Below are positions 20,178 through 36,223 of a stretch of DNA of 64,000 bases, in pieces. Position 1 is the first letter of the stretch. The number at the start of each line of letters is the position of its first letter. Location of the stretch: the NCBI GenBank assembly GCA_022828145.1, contig JAJEJA010000096.1:1-64000 (forward strand). Reading direction: 5' to 3'. The notes beneath the pieces were generated by a model. It made no database searches. It saw nothing but the letters and a program-made list of their open reading frames with translations, and was not told where the DNA came from. Position numbers and translations under genes: made by a program. This DNA is from Candidatus Poribacteria bacterium (lineage in GTDB: Bacteria > Poribacteria > WGA-4E > WGA-3G).

Positions 20178-21095
20178 ATGGAAAATTTACCATTTATACC
20201 CATAGTTGCTGTCGTTGCACTTATAGTCGTCATTATGTTTTTCTGGTTCGTACCAGTAGGACTATGGATTGCAGCAGTCGCAGCAGGGGTACCACTTCGC
20301 ATCTTTGAACTTATCGGGATGCGATTGAGAAGAGTCGATCCAAATACTATTGTCAGAGCTCTTATCAGTAGTCATAAAGCCGGAATAAAAGTCGCTACAT
20401 CAGACTTGGAGGCACACTATCTGGCGGGTGGCGATGTACTTAACGTTGTCAGCGCGCTTATTGCTGCTGATAAGGCACGGAATATCAGCCTTGATTTTAC
20501 GCAAGCGGCTGCAATTGATTTAGCTGGCAGAGATGTATTTGAAGCAGTGCAAATCAGTGTTAATCCACGGGTTATTACAACACCACGCATCAGTGCACTT
20601 GCACTTGATGGCGTTGAACTTATTACAACTGTCAGAATAACTGTGCGAACTTTCATCAATCGACTTGTTGGCGGGGCAGGTGAAGAAACAATCATCGCTC
20701 GTGTAGGTGAAGGTATTATCAGCGCAATCGGGGCATCAGATACCTACGAAGATGTACTTGAAAACCCTGATATCATCACGAAAACAGTGCTTGATAGAGG
20801 TCTTGATGCTGGCACCGCATTTGAAATCTTGTCTATTGATATCGCCGATGTCAATGTTGGGAAGAATATCGGTGCAGAACTACAGGCAGAACAAGCCGAA
20901 GCTGACCTAGTCGTAGCACAAGCAAAAGCAGAAGAACGACGCGCCCTGGCAGTCGCAAGGAAACAAGAGATGACAGCAAATGTACAAGAGAAAAAGGCAA
21001 CAGTTGTTGAAGCAGAAGCAACTGTACCCAGAGCACTTGCAGGGGCATTTCGTGAAGGCAACTTTGAGATTTCAAATATAAGAGAAGGAGTATAG
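20178..21095 (+). CDS. floA: Flotillin-like protein FloA, paralogue 1
   Basis: The 305-residue protein matches FloA/YqfA: an N-terminal membrane segment ([21 protein letters not shown]), [64 protein letters not shown], and an Ala/Glu-rich helix ([20 protein letters not shown]). FloA scaffolds functional membrane microdomains. The gene is one base before a second FloA copy, and downstream of both NfeD genes, as in the yqeZ-yqfA arrangement of Bacillus. Confidence 0.92.
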
Positions 21096-21096
21096 A

Positions 21097-22128
21097 ATGG
21101 AAACACCAATAATTGCTATAATAGCAGTATGTGTATTACTCTTCTTGATTGTTATTGCATGGTTAGTTCCACTCGGATTATGGATTACAGCTATTGCAGC
21201 GGGCGTTAAGGTTGGGATTTTTGACCTTGTTGCAATGCGATTAAGACGAGTACCACCTACAAGAATTGTTGAACCACAAATCAATGCAACAAAAGCGGGG
21301 TTAACCTTATCACTAGATGACCTTGAAGCTCACTACCTGGCAGGCGGACAAGTGGGAAGAGTCGTCGCTGCTCTCATCGCAGCTGACAAAGCGAACATTC
21401 AGTTAGACTTTGCACAAGCCGCAGCAATTGACTTAGCAGGTAGAGATGTTTTACAAGCAGTTCAAGTGAGCGTTACACCAGAGATTATTGATATACCAAG
21501 TGATGAAGACCCAGCAACTGGAATCACTGCTGTCGCAAGAGATGGTATCCAACTCATCGTTAAAGCACGGGTCACTGTCAGGGCAGACATAGATAGACTC
21601 GTGGGTGGCGCGACAGAAGATACTATTCGGGCAAGAGTGGGTGAAGGTATTATCACTACGATAGGTTCATCAGCAAATCATAAACAGGTGTTAGAAAATC
21701 CAGTAAGGATATCTGAAACTGTACTTGACAAAGGTCTTGAAGCTGGTACGGCTTTTGAAATTCTGTCCATAGATATTGCTGACATTAATGTCGGTGAAAA
21801 TGTCGGCGCAAAATTACAGACAGACCAAGCTCAAGCTGAACTCAAAATCGCACGCGCAAAAGCTGAAGAACGAAGAGCAAAAGCCGAAGCAGAAGAAGAA
21901 GAAAATAAAGCTCTCGTAGAAGAAATGACCGTCAAACTGATTGAAGCAGAAGCCGAAATCCCCCTTTCTATCTCCGACGCTTTCAATTCAGAAAATATGA
22001 GCGTTATGGACTATTATACGCTACGGAATATACTCGCTGACACCGAAATGCGACAATCCATCGCCTCACCCGCTGGTACAGATGATGGGGACACAACCCG
22101 GTCAGCACATTCCTTAGGATTAACTTAA
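21097..22128 (+). CDS. Flotillin-like protein FloA, paralogue 2
   Basis: The 343-residue product parallels paralogue 1 throughout ([58 protein letters not shown]). It carries a longer insertion near residues 130-145 (PSDEDPATG), a Glu-rich coiled coil, and a distinct C-terminal extension ([18 protein letters not shown]). Its start is one base after the paralogue 1 stop, with AAGGAG in the overlap. The pair may form mixed oligomers. Confidence 0.92.
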
Positions 22129-26937: not shown

Positions 26938-27027
26938 ACGTGTCCCGCACCCTGTCCAGTCCCGTAGGGACGATATGTTTATAGAAAACGTGTCCTGTTC
27001 CTATAGTGACAAACACCTTACACACCC
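26938..27027. repeat. Intergenic repeat R2 (copy 2) followed by an R1 end fragment
   Basis: Between 26938 and 27001 the sequence ACGTGTCCCG...AGTCCCGTA is followed by GGGACGATATGTTTATAG and AAAACGTGTCC, the same unit as at 1211-1257. From 27006 to 27027 GTGACAAACACCTTACACAC plus CC matches the right end of R1. The rest of the 505-base gap 26736-27240 holds pyrimidine-rich repeats and the nitrate promoter but no gene I can support. Confidence 0.6.
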
Positions 27028-27147: not shown

Positions 27148-27164
27148 TTGGCACTGATTTTGCT
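27148..27164 (+). promoter_or_regulatory. Sigma-54 promoter of the nitrate assimilation operon
   Basis: TTGGCACTGATTTTGCT agrees with the -24/-12 consensus YTGGCACGRNNNTTGCW at all but one defined position. The GG and GC doublets are exactly 10 bases apart. It lies about 75 bases before the ANTAR regulator start. A dyad CTGCT-N9-AGCAG at 27058-27076 upstream could be an activator site, but that is weak. Sigma-54 control fits nitrogen regulation. Confidence 0.7.
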
Positions 27165-27240: not shown

Positions 27241-27843
27241 ATGGAAGTTGCCGCGGAAAAACAGAATGTATTAATCGTTGATAGCGATCTGGAACGGATA
27301 TGTCTGTTGAACCAGGTATTTAAGACAAGTAAATATAACATCATTGCACATGTGGAACTTGATTGCCGTTTTCTGGATCAAGTCAAGCAAACAAATCCCG
27401 ACATAATTCTAATCGGTGTTGCTTCACCTTCTGATGAGACCTTAATCGCCATTGGATCTATAAATCAGAATCATCCTTGTCCAATTGTTATGTTTGCAGA
27501 AGATAATCGATCTGAGACGATTCAAAATGCTACGTTGGCAGGCGTTTCCGCTTATGTAGTTGGTAGTCTGTCAAAGGAACGTATCAGGACAATTATTGAG
27601 GCAGCAATTGCACGATTTGCTAAGTTTCGGACGTTACAAAAAGAACTTGAAAAGACGAAAACGAGTCTTGCAGAACGCAAGATCATAGAACGGGCAAAGG
27701 AAATAGTGGCGCAACAGCGCGGCACAACCGAGGCAGAAGCATATCAAACCTTAAGAAAGATGGCAATGAATCGTAGAAAACGTCTTGCAGAAATCGCACA
27801 AGATGTACTATCTATAGCAGAAATATTGACGAACAAGATCTAA
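27241..27843 (+). CDS. ANTAR-domain response regulator (NasR/NasT-like antiterminator)
   Basis: The 200-residue protein starts with a receiver-like domain (VLIVDSDLERICLLNQVF, with a DSD acidic pocket) and ends with an ANTAR domain at about 135-195 (IIERAKEIVAQQRGTTEAEAY...LRKMAMNRRKRLAEIAQDVL). ANTAR domains bind paired RNA hairpins and prevent termination. The conserved phosphorylation Asp is not obvious where I expect it (PDIILIGV). GGAGGG lies 13 bases before the ATG. It is the first gene of the nitrate operon and likely regulates the leader just downstream. Confidence 0.88.
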   Translation: MEVAAEKQNVLIVDSDLERICLLNQVFKTSKYNIIAHVELDCRFLDQVKQTNPDIILIGVASPSDETLIAIGSINQNHPCPIVMFAEDNRSETIQNATLAGVSAYVVGSLSKERIRTIIEAAIARFAKFRTLQKELEKTKTSLAERKIIERAKEIVAQQRGTTEAEAYQTLRKMAMNRRKRLAEIAQDVLSIAEILTNKI

Positions 27844-27883
27844 TAAAAACTGATCACTACATTTAAAATTAAGTCATAGGTTT

Positions 27884-27899
27884 CATTCAACGTTGAATG
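27884..27899. repeat. Perfect 16-bp palindrome after the ANTAR gene
   Basis: CATTCAACGTTGAATG is self-complementary and sits 40 bases after the regulator stop and 25 before the antiterminator hairpins. With flanking T/A pairing the stem extends in RNA. It could be a processing hairpin, terminator-like stem or a protein site. Confidence 0.4.
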
Positions 27900-27924
27900 G
27901 AACTACTCAGAAAATTAATATATT

Positions 27925-28004
27925 CCCAACCAGTGTAGGTTTGGGATTGGACATAGGTGTCCATCTGGCAAAGCATATCTTTGTCGATGGACACTTTTTG
28001 TTTT
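27925..28004 (+). promoter_or_regulatory. ANTAR-type two-hairpin antiterminator leader with overlapping terminator
   Basis: Hairpin P1 (27925-27945) has stem CCCAACC / GGTTTGGG with a one-base bulge and hexaloop AGTGTA. P2 (27948-27963) has stem TGGAC / GTCCA and hexaloop ATAGGT. Both loops have A at position 1 and G at position 4, the ANTAR signature. The 3' arm of P2 also opens the terminator stem GTCCATC (27959) / GATGGAC (27992), with inner CAAAG / CTTTG, followed by ACTTTTTGTTTT. P2 and the terminator exclude each other, as in nasR-controlled nas leaders. Confidence 0.85.
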
Positions 28005-28027: not shown

Positions 28028-29578
28028 ATGAACAAAATTAAGAATAAGAATGCGTTGAAACGGAAAACCATGCATAAGAAACGAAAATCCAAACTTCATC
28101 CTGCTGAAGCTCTTAAACGTGAAAAAAACGGACTTGAAGTTATGGACGACATTCCATACTACGTACGAAATGGGTGGGAGGCAATTCCACCAGAAAAACG
28201 CGACAGACTCAAGTGGGTTGGCGTGTTCTACCGTCGACAGACACCCGGGTCTTTTATGATGCGTCTAAGGATGACAAGTGGTTTTTCAAATTCAGAACAA
28301 TTTCGCACAATCGCCTTAATCAGTGAAACACACGGTCCAGGTTTTGTTGACCTAACAACACGCCAACAGATTCAATTGCGTGGATTTACAATTGAAAACG
28401 TGCAAAACATCTGGAATCAGCTTGAAGAGGTAGGTCTAAATTCCCTACAGACAGGATTTGACAATATAAGAGGAGTTACAGGTTGTCCTGTGGCAGGTTT
28501 AACCCCGAATGAGTTGTTTGATGCGTCGCCTATAGCAAAGAAGTATACCGATATTATAACGGGTAACAAGGCTTTCACCGATATTCCGCGTAAGTTTAAT
28601 GTTGGCATTACGGGATGCTTAGACAACTGCACACATACTGCTTCGCAAGATATTGCATTGATACCAGCAGTCAAGGAAGTAGATAATCAGGAATTGAAGG
28701 GCTTTAATGTCTTGGTCGGAGGTAAGATGGGTTCGGGAGGATTCACGCTTGCCAAGGAGCTTGATGTATTTGTGTTACCTGAACTTGCAGCAGAATTATG
28801 TGCAGAAATAACATTGATTTTTAGAGACCACGGTGCACGGAAGATTCGAAATAAATCAAGAATGGCATTTCTCATTGCTGACTGGGGAGTCGAAAAGTTC
28901 AGGAAAGAATTAGAGGCACGACATGCCAAACACCTGCTATCAGCAGGTAAAGATATACGTGGTAAGAAAAAAACAGATCACACCGGTATTTTCTCACAGA
29001 AACAGAAAAGCCTAAACTATGTAGGACTTGTTGTACCAGTAGGACGTATAACAACGCCACAACTCTACGAAGTTGCACGACTTGCTGATAAATATGGTTC
29101 TGGACAAATACGGTTAACGCAAGAACAAAATTTGATAATCACTGATGTGCATGATTCCAGAGTTGGGGCGTTAACCGCCGAACCACTTCTCCAAGAACTC
29201 CGCTATGATCCATCAGAAGTCATGCGGGGTATGGTCAGCTGCACAGGTATTGACTATTGTCACTTCTCCCTAATTGAGACAAAAGAACGTGCAATGGAGG
29301 CGATCAAACATTTAGAAGAAAAACTTGGCAATACCGAACCTTTAACTATACATTGGTCAGGATGTCCAAATGGCTGTGGAAACCATGCAGCAGCAGATAT
29401 TGGACTTCTCGGTAAGAAAACGAAAATAGATGGTGTGATAACAGATGCTGTGGATGTTTTCGTCAAAGGCAATTCAGGTCCTAATCCCAAAGTTGCACCG
29501 AAATTACTTGAGAATGTTCCATGTGATGATTTACCAGAAGTCCTTGAAGGTCTCGTACCTTACCTATCAAGAAAATGA
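28028..29578 (+). CDS. nirA: Ferredoxin-type assimilatory nitrite reductase
   Basis: This 516-residue enzyme reduces nitrite to ammonium using siroheme and a 4Fe-4S cluster. The cluster motifs are SCTGIDYCHF (CX5C) and SGCPNGCGNH (CX3C). Ferredoxin-nitrite/sulfite reductase repeats are visible twice (RLTQEQNLIITDV; DLTTRQQIQLRGF). A sulfite reductase is a possible alternative, but the operon with narK and a nitrate reductase supports nitrite. GGAG precedes the start. Expression should depend on the ANTAR leader 24 bases upstream. Confidence 0.88.
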   Translation: MNKIKNKNALKRKTMHKKRKSKLHPAEALKREKNGLEVMDDIPYYVRNGWEAIPPEKRDRLKWVGVFYRRQTPGSFMMRLRMTSGFSNSEQFRTIALISETHGPGFVDLTTRQQIQLRGFTIENVQNIWNQLEEVGLNSLQTGFDNIRGVTGCPVAGLTPNELFDASPIAKKYTDIITGNKAFTDIPRKFNVGITGCLDNCTHTASQDIALIPAVKEVDNQELKGFNVLVGGKMGSGGFTLAKELDVFVLPELAAELCAEITLIFRDHGARKIRNKSRMAFLIADWGVEKFRKELEARHAKHLLSAGKDIRGKKKTDHTGIFSQKQKSLNYVGLVVPVGRITTPQLYEVARLADKYGSGQIRLTQEQNLIITDVHDSRVGALTAEPLLQELRYDPSEVMRGMVSCTGIDYCHFSLIETKERAMEAIKHLEEKLGNTEPLTIHWSGCPNGCGNHAAADIGLLGKKTKIDGVITDAVDVFVKGNSGPNPKVAPKLLENVPCDDLPEVLEGLVPYLSRK

Positions 29579-29587
29579 AGGAGAAAA

Positions 29588-30922
29588 ATGGAAATAAAAA
29601 ACAGAGCAACACAGATAAACTTACTTAGTTTAAAGACGGTTCAAATGCGTACCTTTCATACGACCTGGTTCGCGTTTTTCTTAGCATTTTTTGGATGGTT
29701 CGGGATTGCGCCACTTATGGCAGTAGTCCGGGAAGACCTAATGCTAACAAAAACAGAAGTTGGAAATACTATAATTGCCTCTGTAGCAATAACAGTATTA
29801 GTTAGAGTACTGATTGGTCCCCTTTGCGATCGTATCGGATCAAGAAAAGCTTATACGTGGTTACTGATACTCGGATCAATTCCTGTCATGGGCATTGGAC
29901 TTGTCCAGGATTATACAAGTTTTCTCCTTTTTCGTTTAGCAATCGGGGCAATCGGTGCAGCTTTTGTAATAACCCAATATCATACCTCAGTGATGTTCGC
30001 ACCGAACTGCGTTGGGACTGCAAACGCTACGACCGCAGGTTGGGGTAATTTAGGGGGTGGCGTAACCCAGATAGTGATGCCGCTCATCTTAACTGCAGTC
30101 CTGAGTTTTGGTGTAGATAAGTTCCTTGGATGGCGTCTGGCAATGATCATTCCAGGAATAGCACTGTTCATAATGGGTTTCGTTTACTGTTTCCTTACGC
30201 AAGATGCTCCTGATGGAAACTATAAGGAACTAAGAGAACGAGGGGAATTAGAACCTGCTAAAGGTAAAGGGTTGGAATCCTTCGAACATGTGATTAAAGA
30301 CTATCGCGTATGGGCACTCTTTGTGATTTACGCTGCATGCTTCGGTGTTGAACTTACCATTAATAATATCGCTGCGTTATACTATCATGATCAGTTTCAA
30401 TTAGATGTCAAAACAGCAGGATTAATCGCAGGACTGTTTGGATTAATGAACATATTTGCACGTACTACCGGTGGATATTTGTCAGATTATTTTGCAAAGA
30501 ATATGGGGCTCCGTGGACGTGTTCTATTTTTATTCGTCGTTTTGTTAGGTGAAGGCATTATGCTCGTAATCTTTTCACAGATGACTGTTCTGATACTTGC
30601 AGTAGGCACAATGATTATATTCAGTCTTTTTGTTCAGATGTCTGAAGGCGCAACGTTTGGGATTGTACCTTTTATAAATAAAAAAGCATTAGGTGCGGTC
30701 GCTGGTATCGTTGGGGCGGGAGGAAACGCAGGTGCAGTTGCAGCTGGTTTCTTATTTCGTGCTGAAAATTTCACGATGCAACAAGGTTTACTCTTTCTTG
30801 GTACAATAGTTGTTGTTGCAGCATTTGCTACAGTCTTAGTACGATTCTCCCCTGAGGTACAAGCAGCAGAGAAAAAAGCTTATGAAGATGCTTTGTCGGA
30901 AAAATACGCATTCAAAAACTGA
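29588..30922 (+). CDS. narK: Nitrate/nitrite transporter, NarK family (MFS)
   Basis: The 444-residue transporter has about 12 hydrophobic segments. NarK/NasA family signatures are FHTTWFAFFLAFFGWFGIAP at the N-terminus, IGPLCDRIGSRKAYTWLL, and the nitrate-signature-like GWGNLGGGVTQ and GAGGNAGAVAAG glycine motifs. It starts 9 bases after nirA with AAGGAG. It should import nitrate for NasA or export nitrite. Confidence 0.9.
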   Translation: MEIKNRATQINLLSLKTVQMRTFHTTWFAFFLAFFGWFGIAPLMAVVREDLMLTKTEVGNTIIASVAITVLVRVLIGPLCDRIGSRKAYTWLLILGSIPVMGIGLVQDYTSFLLFRLAIGAIGAAFVITQYHTSVMFAPNCVGTANATTAGWGNLGGGVTQIVMPLILTAVLSFGVDKFLGWRLAMIIPGIALFIMGFVYCFLTQDAPDGNYKELRERGELEPAKGKGLESFEHVIKDYRVWALFVIYAACFGVELTINNIAALYYHDQFQLDVKTAGLIAGLFGLMNIFARTTGGYLSDYFAKNMGLRGRVLFLFVVLLGEGIMLVIFSQMTVLILAVGTMIIFSLFVQMSEGATFGIVPFINKKALGAVAGIVGAGGNAGAVAAGFLFRAENFTMQQGLLFLGTIVVVAAFATVLVRFSPEVQAAEKKAYEDALSEKYAFKN

Positions 30923-31140: not shown

Positions 31141-31152
31141 TTGGAGAAATCA

Positions 31153-33267
31153 GTGAGTAATGCAACAGGTAAAGCCGTTTGCCCCTATTGTGGTGTCGGT
31201 TGTGTTATCCGGGCAGCGGTTCAGGATAATAAAATTACAAAAATTTCAGCCGATGATGATACGGCACCCAATTTCGGGATGCTTTGTCCAAAAGGCGCAC
31301 ATCTCAAACAAGTATTTCAGAATCATGATGGAAGATTAGCATACCCAATGATTCGTGAAGGTAAGCGCGAGCCGCTACGTCAAGTTTCTTGGGAAAAAGC
31401 CATTGCATTTACAGCAAGTCGTCTACAAGATATTCGATTAGAACACGGTAAGGATGCGATTGCACTCTACGGTTCTGGTCAATTAGACACCGAAACATCT
31501 TATGTATTCAACAAGCTCTTTAAAGGGTTTTTGCAGACGAATAATATTGACACTAATAGCAGACTCTGTATGTCATCCGCAGTAGTGGGATATATCAAAG
31601 CGTTCGGTTCAGATGGTCCTCCGACCTGCTATGATGACATCCAACATGCAGATATGTTTCTTATTATTGGTGCAAACATGGCAGCAAATCACCCTGTCCT
31701 TTTTCAAATGATTCGAAAACGACGGGCGTCAGAACCCAATACGCGGGTTATTGCAGTAGACCCCCGCCGAACACAGACAGCAGAATTCTCTGATGTACAT
31801 ATCCCTCTTGCACCTGGAAGTGATGTCGCTTTCCTTCAACTAATTGCAAAACGTCTGCTTGCAATAGAGCGCGTTGATAAAAGGTTTGTCCAAAGAAACA
31901 CGGAAAACTATAGCGCATATAAAAATCATCTCGAAAGTCTTGATGAGGACACACTTCTTTCTATCTGTGACATACACCCAGGTCGTATTGAAGAAATCGT
32001 AGAGTTTCTATCTAAACCGAGTCGTCTGTTAAGTTTCTACTGTCAAGGAACAAACCAGAGCACGAATGGTGTAGACAAGAATGTTGCCTTAATCAATCTC
32101 CATCTTCAATTAGGTGAGGTTGGCAAAAGAGGTGCGGGACCCTTTTCATTGACAGGACAACCGAATGCAATGGGAGGGAGAGAGGTCGGTTATCTTTCTC
32201 ACCAGCTACCCGGATATCGTGTGGTGACAAATGATATGCACCGCGCCTATCTTGAAGGCGCATGGAGGATTCCACCAGGGAGTATTGATCCAATCCCCGG
32301 TTTAACAGCAGTGTCAATGTTTGAGGCTGCAGCTGCTGGGGATGTGCGTGCACTCTGGATTGTCTGCACTAATCCCGCAGTGAGTATGCCCGATACAAAA
32401 GTTTCTCAAGCAGGACTCAAACGCGCGGACTTGGTGATAGTACAGGATTGTTATTATCCAACTGAAACAACGGAATACGCAGATGTACTGCTGCCTGCTG
32501 CACAGTGGGGTGAAAAACGGGGCACAATGACAAATAGCGAACGTCTCGTTGTCCGAAGCGATAAATTCCTTACACCCCCTGGAGAAGCAAAACCGGATTG
32601 GTGGATATTCTCACAAATAGCGAAGGTGATGGGTTTCAAACGTGATTTTGATTTTCATACCCATGAGGAGATTTGGGACGAATTCCGACTGTTGACCGCA
32701 GGAACACCGTGTGACCAGATGGGAATGACGAATGAACGTCTTGAAAAAGAGTCACTCCGTTGGCCCTGTCCTAATCCGAAACATCCTGGAACGCTCCGCC
32801 GTTATACACGCAGGAAGTTTTTCACACCTTCAGGTAAAGCACAATTTCACACACCAACCTATCGTCCACCAGAAGAAGAGACAGATGCGGAATTTCCGCT
32901 CGGTTTGACGACAGGACGAGTTGCGAGTCAATGGCACACCCGTACCCGTACCGGGAAAGTCCAGCAACTCAATAAAAAAGACCCTGAGCCTTTCGTTGAA
33001 ATTCATCCTGACGATGCTGAAGAGAACGGGGTAGAGGATGGTAATTGGATATTTCTAATTGGACGACGTGGAAGGTGTTATGCACGCGCGCGTGTTACGG
33101 AGTCTATACGGCGTGGATTACTGTTTACGCCGTTCCATTGGGGTGATCTCTTTCATTCAGAGACGAATGTCAATTATGTAACAAATTCAGCGTTTGATCC
33201 GGTATCTAAACAACCGGAGATGAAATTCTGTGCTGTGCGGATTGAGGTTGGTAGTGTGAAAAGTTAA
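31153..33267 (+). CDS. nasA: Assimilatory nitrate reductase catalytic subunit
   Basis: The 704-residue molybdopterin enzyme reduces nitrate to nitrite in the cytoplasm. At the N-terminus CPYCGVGC and LCPKG supply the four cysteines of a 4Fe-4S cluster. GSGQLDTETSYVFNKL, SRLCMSSAV, MFLIIGANMAANHP and GPFSLTGQPNAMGGREVG are bis-MGD oxidoreductase motifs. The C-terminal domain begins TGRVASQWHTRTRTGK. The start is GTG 31153, which GGAGA precedes; a TTG at 31141 overlaps the ribosome site. A formate dehydrogenase is unlikely given NirA and NarK. Confidence 0.88.
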   Translation: MSNATGKAVCPYCGVGCVIRAAVQDNKITKISADDDTAPNFGMLCPKGAHLKQVFQNHDGRLAYPMIREGKREPLRQVSWEKAIAFTASRLQDIRLEHGKDAIALYGSGQLDTETSYVFNKLFKGFLQTNNIDTNSRLCMSSAVVGYIKAFGSDGPPTCYDDIQHADMFLIIGANMAANHPVLFQMIRKRRASEPNTRVIAVDPRRTQTAEFSDVHIPLAPGSDVAFLQLIAKRLLAIERVDKRFVQRNTENYSAYKNHLESLDEDTLLSICDIHPGRIEEIVEFLSKPSRLLSFYCQGTNQSTNGVDKNVALINLHLQLGEVGKRGAGPFSLTGQPNAMGGREVGYLSHQLPGYRVVTNDMHRAYLEGAWRIPPGSIDPIPGLTAVSMFEAAAAGDVRALWIVCTNPAVSMPDTKVSQAGLKRADLVIVQDCYYPTETTEYADVLLPAAQWGEKRGTMTNSERLVVRSDKFLTPPGEAKPDWWIFSQIAKVMGFKRDFDFHTHEEIWDEFRLLTAGTPCDQMGMTNERLEKESLRWPCPNPKHPGTLRRYTRRKFFTPSGKAQFHTPTYRPPEEETDAEFPLGLTTGRVASQWHTRTRTGKVQQLNKKDPEPFVEIHPDDAEENGVEDGNWIFLIGRRGRCYARARVTESIRRGLLFTPFHWGDLFHSETNVNYVTNSAFDPVSKQPEMKFCAVRIEVGSVKS

Positions 33268-33377: not shown

Positions 33378-33695
33378 TTACAAATCTAAAACAAATGTGA
33401 TAGTGTTCTTAATCTCTGTCATCACATTCTCTGGAAATTTACTAAGTTTTCGTATAAGCCGAATCTTCTCTATGGAACCTATCCCTTGTACATTGACGTA
33501 AGAGTCTTGATTAAGAAAGTTCAACTTTGGAAGTGTTACCTCATAGAAACTTTCTTTATATTTAGTTGTTAAAGGGATATAAATTATTAGAGATAGTGGC
33601 GGATCTGGATCGTAACGAGATATAACAAGCACCGGTCGGGTCTTTGCCACCAAACCCAGATCCGCAAGCCAAATTTCACCGGGATACGGGTTCAT
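33378..33695 (-). CDS. MazF/PemK-type toxin endoribonuclease
   Basis: The 105-residue protein begins MNPYPGEIWLADLG, then KTRPVLVIS, and has SLIIYIPLTTK, NQDSYVNVQGIGSIEKIRL. This is the PemK/MazF fold of sequence-specific mRNA interferases. The start codon lies inside the end of the antitoxin gene (20-base overlap). The pair follows nasA on the opposite strand, at the border of the accessory stretch. Confidence 0.82.
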   Translation of the reverse strand: MNPYPGEIWLADLGLVAKTRPVLVISRYDPDPPLSLIIYIPLTTKYKESFYEVTLPKLNFLNQDSYVNVQGIGSIEKIRLIRKLSKFPENVMTEIKNTITFVLDL

Positions 33696-33861
33696 CAAGT
33701 ATATCCAACACTTCTTGTTCCACTGCACGCGATCGCATTATTTCTAACAAACCTTCGTCTGCAAGGTCAATAAGTTCCGAGACACGTTGTCTAACCTCCG
33801 CTGCAGTACTTGGTTCCCATTCCTGCAATTTCTCATCTAACCTTTCAACTAACATATCCAT
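33676..33861 (-). CDS. Antitoxin of the MazF-like toxin
   Basis: The 61-residue protein is strongly helical and acidic (ERLDEKLQEWEPSTAAEV, SELIDLADEGLLEIMRS). It overlaps the toxin start by 20 bases, the usual order of antitoxin then toxin. It does not look like a MazE AbrB-fold protein. No DNA-binding motif is visible, so autoregulation by another domain is unknown. Confidence 0.65.
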   Translation of the reverse strand: MDMLVERLDEKLQEWEPSTAAEVRQRVSELIDLADEGLLEIMRSRAVEQEVLDILDEPVSR

Positions 33862-34211: not shown

Positions 34212-34394
34212 TCAGCTCAGTCGGCCCAGAATTTGGGATATTTCCTGGTATGGTGTGCTCATCATGGTTATTGTTTTATGCCTCGTCACTGAGTCGTCTC
34301 CTGGAGTCTGCTTACCATCTTTATCTGATTCGAATTCCCCTGCGCTATCAAGAATTTCTTTCACACTTCTATCTCTGGATTCAAAAATTATCAA
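34212..34394 (-). CDS. Possible 60-residue protein coupled to the alpha-CTD gene
   Basis: A TTG-started frame overlaps the stop of the upstream gene (TTGA, four bases), a pattern typical of translational coupling. The product (FESRDRSVKEILDSAGEFES at the start; ISQILGRLS at the end) is hydrophilic with no known domain. It may be a small partner or chance. Confidence 0.3.
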   Translation of the reverse strand: MIIFESRDRSVKEILDSAGEFESDKDGKQTPGDDSVTRHKTITMMSTPYQEISQILGRLS

Positions 34395-36223
34395 TCTCTG
34401 GAGAATTTGGCACGCTCAATGTCATGGTAACTTATTGATCTTCCCCGTACTGTGTATAGAGCTAACTCTATCTTCTTAAACAGTGGAGAAAAGTTCAGAG
34501 TTGCGGACAATGAAGAAACAGAAAGATTGCATTCTTTAAAAGCGTGAACTAATTCTGAGCGATGTACCACCGGACCGATCTGATCCACACAATTCATTAT
34601 TACAGTTTCACTTGTGCTGAGAGTCTCGTCGGAAACACCCTCCCAATAGTATAATTCTCCCTTACATTTGTAATCATAAATTCTGATTATCTTTTGCATC
34701 ACATCAGGAGGTGGAACGGGGAATTCTGATCTTGATAAAACCTGCTGAAGACCTGAACACACATCATCAATGGATACTGGACCACAATAAAAAAACATCT
34801 TGCGCAGCCCTTTATGGAATACATGATTTTTTGGAATTATAGGTGTCTGCTTAATCACTCTTGGGATAAACCAATCTTTAGAAAGCATCTTATACCCTAA
34901 TGCCCGCAAAATAATCTTTGTATCTTCTAACTCTCTACCAATTTCTTGAGATAACCATATAGCATATACGCCTCCAGAATGATTTATGTGTCGGTTAATG
35001 AGTTTTTTTATATCATCTGGTAAAGTTTCATGCACATGTTGAATCTTTGCAGGTGCATAGGGCTGCCCAGCATTGACAAGCTGTAAAGTATATTGTAAGG
35101 ATAAGGGTATTTGAAGACAACGGATACTCTGATCAGCTAGTAAATTGCAAATTGCAACCATAACTTCGACTACATCTTTTCCTAAATAATTCTCAGATTT
35201 CCAATTACCTACGAGCCCTGATGATCGAATGCGTTGTGCCCATTGATGATAACTCATGTCAAGCCCCATGTCTCCAGCAATGAGGAGAGATGACTGCATT
35301 CTAAGCAAAGTAGGCCTACCTTTGAGATTCTTAATAGATTTGGCTTCAACTATTGCATTAACCTCACCACACAATTTTTCCTTCAACTCATTGTCAAGTT
35401 GTCTTATTCTTTCGCGTGTATACTCTAATTCTTTTCCAATTTGACCCAGGGTTTTTCGTTCAAAACCGTACCTCAATAGCATAACAAGCAAATAGTGCTG
35501 TCCAGGAAGCAGGTTTAGTAAGTATTCAATTTCCTCACTGATGTTGAGTGAAGAACTCAAAATCTGTGCTAACACTTCGTACGCCTTGTAGTTCTCAATT
35601 GTTCCAACTTCTGCAAGCCAGTCATTCAAAGGACGGTCCATAATATTAGCATGTTCATGCAGCAATTCCATTGAAAGCTGCTTGGATACTAATTGCAATT
35701 GCCAGCTAATAACTTGGTCAGGAATTCCTTCAAGATTCATCAAACTCGAAGCTACGTCAGGATTTGTATCTACTTCGATTGAATCGTTAATTTCTATTTT
35801 TGCCAGTTTATCTTTGATTTCTGAAATAGATTTGCTCCCAAGTCCGAGAATGTCTTGAATCTCACCTGATTCAACAAGCTTTACAACTTCTGAGACAGTT
35901 TTAACACCTATGTTTCGCAGCCCGTTGAATGAACGATTACTTAAATTGAGTTGTCCAATCCTTAGGGTTGTACCTTCTAATGATTTCTTTTTTGCTTCTC
36001 CCCCACTTTTCAACTGACTCAGACAATTATCTATTTCCAAAATACACTTTTTCCCAAGTCCGTGAATGGTTCCTATCAAGCCCAACTCAACAAGGTCTAT
36101 GACTTCTCCAATAGTCTTAATCCCTGAGCGTTTTAAAGCGTTAGTGGAACGAATAGACAAGTTCAAATTTCCAATAGAATCTTCTTTTGAGAGTTGCCTG
36201 GAAAATAGGGTATGGTTGCTCAT
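34391..36223 (-). CDS. Protein with two RNA polymerase alpha-CTD-like domains and a sigma-4-like HTH
   Basis: This 610-residue protein carries two alpha-CTD-like modules: about 15-70 (LNLSIRSTNALKRSGIKTIG) and 85-145 (LNLSNRSFNGLRNIGVKTVS), each ending in an HhH-like GLGKK or GLGSK motif. Near 255-290 RKTLGQIGKELEYTRERIRQ looks like sigma region 4.2. The C-terminal 250 residues may contain winged helices. It may bind DNA or RNA polymerase and rewire transcription. A similar architecture occurs in accessory loci, but I recognise no named gene. Confidence 0.7.
   Translation of the reverse strand: MSNHTLFSRQLSKEDSIGNLNLSIRSTNALKRSGIKTIGEVIDLVELGLIGTIHGLGKKCILEIDNCLSQLKSGGEAKKKSLEGTTLRIGQLNLSNRSFNGLRNIGVKTVSEVVKLVESGEIQDILGLGSKSISEIKDKLAKIEINDSIEVDTNPDVASSLMNLEGIPDQVISWQLQLVSKQLSMELLHEHANIMDRPLNDWLAEVGTIENYKAYEVLAQILSSSLNISEEIEYLLNLLPGQHYLLVMLLRYGFERKTLGQIGKELEYTRERIRQLDNELKEKLCGEVNAIVEAKSIKNLKGRPTLLRMQSSLLIAGDMGLDMSYHQWAQRIRSSGLVGNWKSENYLGKDVVEVMVAICNLLADQSIRCLQIPLSLQYTLQLVNAGQPYAPAKIQHVHETLPDDIKKLINRHINHSGGVYAIWLSQEIGRELEDTKIILRALGYKMLSKDWFIPRVIKQTPIIPKNHVFHKGLRKMFFYCGPVSIDDVCSGLQQVLSRSEFPVPPPDVMQKIIRIYDYKCKGELYYWEGVSDETLSTSETVIMNCVDQIGPVVHRSELVHAFKECNLSVSSLSATLNFSPLFKKIELALYTVRGRSISYHDIERAKFSRD

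Follow-up and report, generated by a model that had tools for sequence, protein, structure and literature searches.

What governs the nitrate assimilation genes of a Candidatus Poribacteria bacterium, when an interval rich in hairpins separates nirA from a gene for an ANTAR regulator? Poribacteria are chiefly known as uncultured associates of sponges, and the host of this locus is probably sponge-associated as well. Its genome assembly comprises 5.06 Mb in 123 contigs and is 94.3% complete; the window is the whole stretch of 64,000 nucleotides analysed here. In the original prediction, the interval held two adjacent hairpins with hexaloops AGUGUA and AUAGGU, each with A at position 1 and G at position 4 (A1/G4), and a terminator that takes the 3′ arm of the second hairpin into its own 5′ arm. 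Sequence and folding bear out both statements, and the bounds proposed were correct within a few bases. As discussed below, the leader is very probably an ANTAR antitermination leader of the NasT type lying inside a sigma-54 operon, where binding to the hairpins P1 and P2 would control read-through into nirA-narK-nasA. No ANTAR control in Poribacteria is reported in the titles and abstracts listed from the openly licensed literature searched. The locus adds an ANTAR-RNA switch in this phylum.

Genes of the locus

The features of the locus are collected in Table 1. P1, P2 and the terminator figured in the original prediction, which omitted the third hairpin P0, the sigma-54 type element and a second target found in two relatives.

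Table 1. Positions of the genes and RNA or DNA elements discussed (window coordinates unless a locus is named)
Feature	Position	Strand	Evidence
Sigma-54 type -24/-12 element TGGCACTGATTTTGCT, 76 nt before the regulator ATG	27149..27164	+	consensus match
ANTAR regulator gene, NasT-like (degenerate receiver, coiled coil, ANTAR; 200 aa)	27241..27843	+	Pfam
P0, third hairpin, hexaloop AACGTT (27889-27894) with A1 and G4	27879..27904	+	folding, loop-class enrichment
P1, first antiterminator hairpin, hexaloop AGTGTA (27932-27937)	27924..27946	+	sequence, folding
P2, second antiterminator hairpin, hexaloop ATAGGT (27953-27958)	27948..27963	+	sequence, folding
Intrinsic terminator, stem 27957-27994, T-run to 28000	27957..28000	+	folding, covariation
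nirA, ferredoxin-nitrite reductase	28028..29578	+	NCBIfam NF007125, Pfam NIR_SIR
narK, nitrate/nitrite MFS transporter	29588..30922	+	TIGR00886
nasA-like molybdopterin oxidoreductase (from its context, an assimilatory nitrate reductase)	31141..33267	+	Pfam Molybdopterin
Second ANTAR leader (G023)	L227:6426-6501	-	covariance match
Second ANTAR leader (G049)	L228:3989-4063		covariance match

The nirA product scores 551.7 bits against NF007125, under the cut-off of 594, and NarK scores 311.7 bits against TIGR00886, at the cut-off. For the nasA-like protein, Pfam Molybdopterin gives 234.2 bits, and the NCBIfam models Fdh-alpha (562.9 bits) and NasC (543.7 bits) both remain under their cut-offs; the name nasA is therefore taken from the neighbourhood. 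The gap between nirA and narK measures 9 nt and that between narK and the nasA-like gene 218 nt. A simple scan found no plus-strand terminator in these gaps, a silence that carries little weight because the same scan missed the terminator of the leader itself.

Several other elements of the window may be recorded. A PemK/MazF-like toxin gene (33378-33728, minus strand) adjoins nasA on the opposite strand. Farther along on the minus strand (34391-36223), a 610-aa protein combines two stretches of the RNA polymerase alpha C-terminal domain with a match to sigma-70 region 4, an odd combination of domains. Two neighbouring genes for FloA, a flotillin-like protein, occupy 20178-22128 (447 and 477 bits), and the window opens with the 3′ part of a 23S rRNA gene and a 5S rRNA gene (1-1031). 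The element CCGTAGGGACGATATGTTTATAGAAA occurs once in the window, at 26962-26987; a slightly altered form of it is visible in the L078 leader, and it has the look of a dispersed repeat.

Architecture of the leader

P1 can be written TCCCAACC-AGTGTA-GG-T-TTGGGA, with a single bulged T, and P2 as TGGAC-ATAGGT-GTCCA. The 5′ arm of the terminator, GTGTCCATC, includes the 3′ arm of P2, so that P2 and the terminator are mutually exclusive. The folding energy of the 84-nt leader is -37.1 kcal/mol (z -6.67) and the terminator alone reaches z -6.93; P1 and P2 alone are unremarkable in energy (z -2.28 over 45 nt, -1.28 over 55 nt). The full structure, P1, P2 and an overlapping terminator, occurs once when both strands of the 64-kb window are scanned, against 0.0067 per shuffled window (two altogether in 300), with a pattern that had been relaxed after a stricter version failed to detect the leader. 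A chance structure was rejected on this comparison. The same scan returned one P2 plus terminator-like match lacking P1, on the minus strand at 27894 (0.39 expected).

Over the leader, every Rfam family stays under its gathering threshold, the entry "P11" scoring 23.8 bits against a cut-off of 70. The leader displays the features by which dual hexaloop ANTAR-target RNAs are recognised (Ramesh 2012): the hairpins form a pair, each with at least 3 bp and an A1/G4 hexaloop, and the second shares sequence with an intrinsic terminator that it excludes. Only 1-2 nt link P1 to P2, outside the 5-12 nt range of the eut leaders of E. faecalis, where, according to PMC3369931, cutting the linker to 3 nt lowered induction. 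Since the published model of ANTAR-target RNAs allows a variable linker, the shortness seen here does not settle membership.

Conservation and covariation

Among 117 genomes searched, 56 (including the source genome) encode a protein closely homologous to the regulator over its whole length, with E below 1e-59; the other matches are weaker or limited to the receiver part. A P2 motif with a T-run lies 3′ of the regulator gene in all 56 loci, within 520 nt of the stop codon in 55 and farther away in L044. These loci are related and come from one phylum, so that the counts do not represent independent events. Downstream, nirA is found in 53 of them (as a fragment match only in L078). The three loci without nirA make up family f4; in one of them, L087, Pfam identifies the next gene as a nirB/nirD-type reductase and a gene 5′ of the regulator as an ammonium transporter.

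Thirty-six of the 56 Poribacteria leaders could be aligned after omission of ten with an inserted hairpin, of L044 and of nine with more than 60 nt between P2 and the T-run. Two-sided changes affect five of the eight P1 pairs and one of the four P2 pairs. The compensating changes for which the original prediction had called are present: cells changed on both sides number 34 for P1 and P2 together, as compared with 13.3 after shuffling (reached in 0 of 500 shuffles). A weaker measure, the number of further pair types, gives 14 against 12.3 (70 of 500). For the terminator, 24 cells are changed on both sides against 9.5 (0 of 500), the number of pairs with such changes is unremarkable (5 against 3.9; 156 of 500) and the innermost pairs are not maintained across the aligned loci. 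In the column common to P2 and the terminator, the combinations are G-C-G in 18 leaders, A-T-G in seven, A-T-A in six and G-T-A in five. The shared base thus covaries with both of its partners, as is expected if both exclusive structures matter.

G4 of the P1 loop is present in 36 of 36 leaders and A1 in 34, the two others (L042 and L043) having C, and neither letter was required in the selection of rows. The A1 and G4 of P2 were built into the motif search pattern and are not independent evidence. A spacing of 17 nt between the P1 loop and P2 recurs in 37 of 43 loci counted. In the source genome, a covariance search with strict filters gave the leader itself as sole match at E up to 0.1, the model having been built with this leader included. 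Of the 56 genomes with the regulator, 51 yield their leader to the model. The other five belong to the insertion clade, some leaders with the inserted hairpin being missed or barely detected; one of them, G027, has a weak match elsewhere in its genome. By eye, the insert (of the AATTGTGCCTTGATGGCACAATT type) bears a hairpin and lies within the 3′ arm of P1, near the bulged base, in ten loci (L046, L048, L056, L060, L064, L066, L067, L069, L071 and L076), where the hexaloop seems retained.

The regulator protein

As the original prediction had it, the gene just upstream encodes an ANTAR protein (Pfam ANTAR 63.2 bits, Response_reg 33.2 bits), and this is the only PF03861 match in the source genome. 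Pfam finds no NIT domain in the regulator; in the genome-wide search for this domain, the control genomes gave no match. Of the best 80 among 568 loci, 46 belong to Candidatus Poribacteria MAGs, the close named relatives; outside this phylum the relatives are mainly beta- and gamma-proteobacterial, at 40-47% identity. The protein is NasT-like, a designation founded on its being closest to proteobacterial receiver-ANTAR proteins, several of which are encoded beside nrt/nas-type genes.

The best solved relatives are EutV, Rv1626, NasR (ANTAR part) and AmiR. An AlphaFold model of the regulator (mean pLDDT 86.8) was compared with the PDB using Foldseek; EutV was the best match (TM 0.67-0.71 by query length) and AmiR gave TM 0.58-0.63. 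When the RNA-contact positions are taken from the EutV-RNA structure, as set out in PMC8934654, ten of the eleven residues are retained and in the eleventh Lys is replaced by Arg. R146, K147, R151 (Lys147 in EutV), K153, E164, Y168, M176 and R181 are invariant in the 56 regulators; R172 and R179 are each kept in 53 and N177 in 41. Conservation, compensatory changes and a partner with the RNA-contact residues of EutV together give good support to the earlier reading of the interval as an ANTAR antitermination leader.

The receiver domain is degenerate. Its phospho-acceptor Asp is lost in 56 of 56 Poribacteria proteins (Gly in 53, Cys in two, Asn in one), as opposed to retention in 58 of 62 distinct proteobacterial NasT (60 of 64 with two duplicates). 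At the site of the conserved receiver Lys, no protein of either group, Poribacteria or Proteobacteria, has Lys. Strong conservation of the receiver around positions 79-110 suggests a contact with a partner or within a dimer.

A sigma-54 type element before the regulator gene

The element TGGCACTGATTTTGCT is of the sigma-54 type by its consensus. No other stretch of the window matches TGGCACNNNNNTTGCW exactly; with up to one mismatch, nine matches are found where 2.4 are expected. Within 260 nt upstream of the regulator gene, a match to TGGCACGNNNNTTGCW with at most two mismatches is found in 51 of the 56 Poribacteria loci (0.8 expected), and upstream of nasT in 49 of 64 proteobacterial loci, 47 of 62 when only distinct ones are counted (2.1 expected). 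The source genome has a sigma-54 gene. The three f4 loci have a weaker element, TGGCATCTTTTTTGCC (three mismatches), about 1.7 kb upstream, which in L087 precedes the ammonium transporter gene.

An element placed directly before the leader was also considered and rejected, none of the 56 Poribacteria loci having one with fewer than three mismatches in the 260 nt past the regulator stop; among Proteobacteria, seven of 62 distinct loci do carry such an element after the nasT stop. Given the upstream element and none past the stop, the regulator gene, the attenuator and the structural genes would most simply form one sigma-54 operon. The regulator gene would then stand 5′ of the attenuator and apparently be co-transcribed with it, likewise in many proteobacterial nasT loci. 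The link with the sigma-54 type element predicts an AND logic for nitrate use, and PMC5424462 describes Ntr control combined with antitermination in Klebsiella and Paracoccus.

What the regulator would sense

The original prediction went on to propose a self-contained nitrate control. This part finds no support: the receiver is degenerate, no match to a nitrate-binding domain was found and a NasS/NrtA-like protein was not detected. NasS was sought with PF13379 in 12 Poribacteria genomes (drafts among them), ten of which have the regulator; in eight the best score does not exceed 27 bits and the match spans roughly 37-63 positions of the model, and four give no match. As controls, the NasS-type gene adjoining nasT in Thioploca (L146; no signal peptide by eye) reaches 314 bits and the NrtA-type gene beside nasT in Methylobacillus (L145) 359 bits. 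According to PMC3795266, a nasS mutant of Paracoccus expresses the nas genes constitutively. With NasS undetected, a nitrate response is hence not to be assumed here. Absence of NasS together with that of the phospho-acceptor would leave either another sensor partner or a response mainly to the amount of regulator.

The latter leads to the best surviving alternative, in which the same leader would work without nitrate sensing: the regulator would be active once made, and the attenuator would impose a delay or a threshold set by sigma-54-driven synthesis. The low PF13379 scores relative to the proteobacterial controls, the replacement of the Asp in every Poribacteria regulator and the phenotype of the Paracoccus mutant all favour it. 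Nonetheless, an unrelated sensor could stand in for NasS, and the conserved receiver stretch suggests a partner or dimer contact. In addition, Methylobacillus sp. MM3 (G119, L154) has a single PF13379 protein, of the exported NrtA type by eye, and a NasT that keeps its Asp. NasT may accordingly be regulated without a dedicated NasS, and the absence of NasS may not be special to Poribacteria. On balance this alternative appears quite possible, if somewhat short of probable. A NasT with neither a detected NasS nor a phospho-site sharpens the question of what is sensed. In L145, L154 and other Methylophilaceae loci, the nasT gene precedes both a hexaloop leader and a transporter cluster of the nrt type.

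A third hexaloop hairpin

Upstream of P1, the leader has a third hairpin, P0; in the leader fold, A1 and U6 of its loop also pair in silico, leaving 4 nt unpaired. Between the regulator stop and P1, all hairpins with a 6-nt loop of any sequence and at least four Watson-Crick pairs were collected and classed by loop positions 1 and 4, with the expectation drawn from 20-nt block shuffles. The sample comprised 55 of the 56 Poribacteria loci and 35 of 64 proteobacterial loci, 27 of the latter 64 having no P2 within 520 nt of nasT. In Poribacteria, 39 hairpins of the A..G class were found, in 38 loci, against 1.5 expected, an enrichment of about 25-fold; all other loop classes pooled give 25 against 22.7. 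In Proteobacteria, the A..G class counts 26 against 0.9 and the other classes 13 against 12.9; without the exact duplicates (L193 = L145, L194 = L148), 24 A..G hairpins remain in 24 of 33 loci, beside 13 of other classes. In Poribacteria the A..C class also exceeds expectation (10 against 1.5), from which it follows that shared ancestry inflates the loop-class counts.

The three hexaloops occur together in 33 of 55 Poribacteria loci (27 of 45 without the insertion clade, in which the rule may pick the wrong loop as P1) and in 23 of 34 distinct proteobacterial loci. By strict pairing, P0 is absent from 17 of 55 Poribacteria loci. With a looser pattern, in which loop position 4 had to be G but position 1 could be either A or G, it is absent from 10 of 56, and three of the 46 found have G in place of A1. 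In all, 21 loop sequences and 12 inner 4-nt arms were counted. The alignment of P0 holds 58 distinct of 65 sites (63 without duplicates), and its rows were preselected for pairing and for A1/G4, which makes statistics on the four inner pairs and the loop letters circular. P0 precedes P2 by 57-243 nt in Poribacteria and by 46-113 nt in Proteobacteria, distances too great for it to be half of a classical P1/P2 pair.

P0 as a mere 3′-UTR feature of the regulator mRNA was rejected, since P0 also occurs in L170, L175 and L202, proteobacterial leaders that each have a sigma-54 type element to themselves; other leaders with a separate promoter element, L241 and L251 among them, lack it. It may also be asked whether P0 acts at the DNA level, as a palindromic operator bound by a transcription factor, instead of as an RNA hairpin. 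Its core TTCAACGTTGAA is indeed a perfect palindrome in the window and in several loci of its genus, yet the arms and loops vary widely across loci, most loops are non-palindromic and the loop classes other than A..G, pooled, stay near expectation. Moreover, GTTCANNGNNGAAC is not enriched in the genome (four matches, against five and nine for reversed controls), a limited test, all the more as the P0 of the window has ATTC arms, which fall outside this pattern. The operator explanation is therefore unlikely. As an RNA hairpin, P0 would most likely provide an extra, early docking site that loads the regulator onto the transcript, or a decoy that raises the threshold.

No third hexaloop in NasT leaders is named in the titles and abstracts listed from the openly licensed literature searched, nor is a P0-like hairpin mentioned in the available parts of PMC5424462, PMC3795266 and PMC6759348. 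More than two hexaloops per transcription unit nonetheless have a precedent in Desulfotomaculum acetoxidans, for which PMC3369931 gives 13 motif hits across six units. P0 bears on the question raised by the EutV-RNA structure (PMC8934654) as to how many hexaloops are engaged per ANTAR dimer and in which order.

Further leaders and possible remnants

Two genomes, G023 and G049, give additional strong covariance matches (46.6 and 44.8 bits), which correspond to a second leader. About 115 nt separate its P2 from the end of a preceding sigma-54 type element. By eye, the P1 loop is AACGTT, P2 reads CGAC-AGAGGT-GTCG and the terminator comes next; no P0 was seen in this second leader. In G049 the 3′ arm of P2 is GTCT, which leaves three pairs. 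The ANTAR-leader reading gains support from this second copy, in which a P2 pair is changed. The gene behind it encodes, in G049, an outer-membrane protein of the Alginate_exp family (112.9 bits), perhaps a nitrate porin, and the G023 gene is similar by eye. A protein of the same family (33.8 bits) is encoded downstream of nasT in L145, in an nrt-transporter-like cluster.

In family f4, a second attenuator lies between the ammonium transporter and ANTAR genes (L230:3281-3360 in G067, with matching hits in G063 and G068). The G067 copy has a P2 hexaloop, GGAC-AAAGGC-GTCC, and an overlapping terminator, with no obvious P1; its position suggests autoregulation of the regulator. In G060, a terminator on the minus strand (L229:4855-4940), behind amtB and a PII-like gene (both named by eye), has P2-like arms without an A1/G4 hexaloop, and a close ANTAR homologue was not found; this is possibly a decayed attenuator.

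A plain constitutive terminator after the regulator gene, with a coincidental likeness to hexaloops, would account for the strong terminator and has a parallel in the degraded loop of G060, but it is very improbable given the conserved P1 loop letters, the spacing, the exclusive pairings, the partner protein and the recurrence of the motif behind a second sigma-54 type element in G023 and G049. Natural leaders with three hexaloops, with two (the second target) and perhaps with one (the f4 upstream attenuator) constitute a ready test set.

Proposed mechanism

The preferred reading, antitermination by an ANTAR regulator, is built on how the leader is laid out and conserved, on pairings that exclude each other and on a partner protein that fits. 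From these we infer binding, termination, read-through, expression, the use of sigma-54 and a role for P0, in a chain of events that would run as follows. Under nitrogen limitation, sigma-54 polymerase would start upstream of the regulator gene and transcribe it. Past this gene, the nascent RNA would fold P0, then P1 and P2, each exposing an A1/G4 hexaloop. Should an active ANTAR dimer sit on P1 and P2, P2 would keep the strand needed by the terminator and transcription would proceed into nirA-narK-nasA. With no active dimer bound, the terminator would win and only regulator mRNA would be made. The earlier proposal that nirA, narK and nasA depend for their expression on a leader kept open by the regulator is thus plausible.

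It is tempting to imagine a broader scheme, in which the third hexaloop would be a docking or titration site in the NasT leaders of two phyla and, Poribacteria NasT having neither phospho-site nor NasS, the attenuator would be read by dose or by some other sensor, in place of the classical nitrate relay. This scheme is put forward tentatively, and we hold it for more doubtful than probable.

Comparison with known systems

The leader is a switch of a known kind, which here has an extra hexaloop, in common with proteobacterial nasT leaders, and a degenerate receiver, and for which no NasS was detected. With the AmiR-AmiC system of Pseudomonas, it shares an ANTAR protein with a pseudo-receiver; it differs in that no match to a binding-protein family is present among the 12 other window proteins scanned. 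The resemblance to EutV/EutW-eut of Enterococcus extends to the RNA motif, the protein fold and the RNA-contact residues. However, EutV is switched by phosphorylation of Asp54, where Gly is found here, and the eut leaders have a longer linker.

NasR-nasF of Klebsiella also controls a nitrate assimilation operon and, according to PMC7496416, its leader likewise forms two hairpins whose loops are A1/G4 hexaloops, with C:G as the closing pair. The sensory part is different, NasR detecting nitrate through a NIT domain, in place of which the present regulator has a receiver. Finally, compared with NasS-NasT (Paracoccus nasA, Bradyrhizobium nosR), whose NasT is a closer relative than NasR, the Poribacteria locus differs in that no NasS was detected and by the loss of the phospho-acceptor Asp that most proteobacterial NasT retain, whereas it shares with this system a regulator made of receiver and ANTAR domains, a hairpin leader with a terminator, nitrate assimilation genes and, as in many proteobacterial loci, the position of the leader 3′ of nasT.
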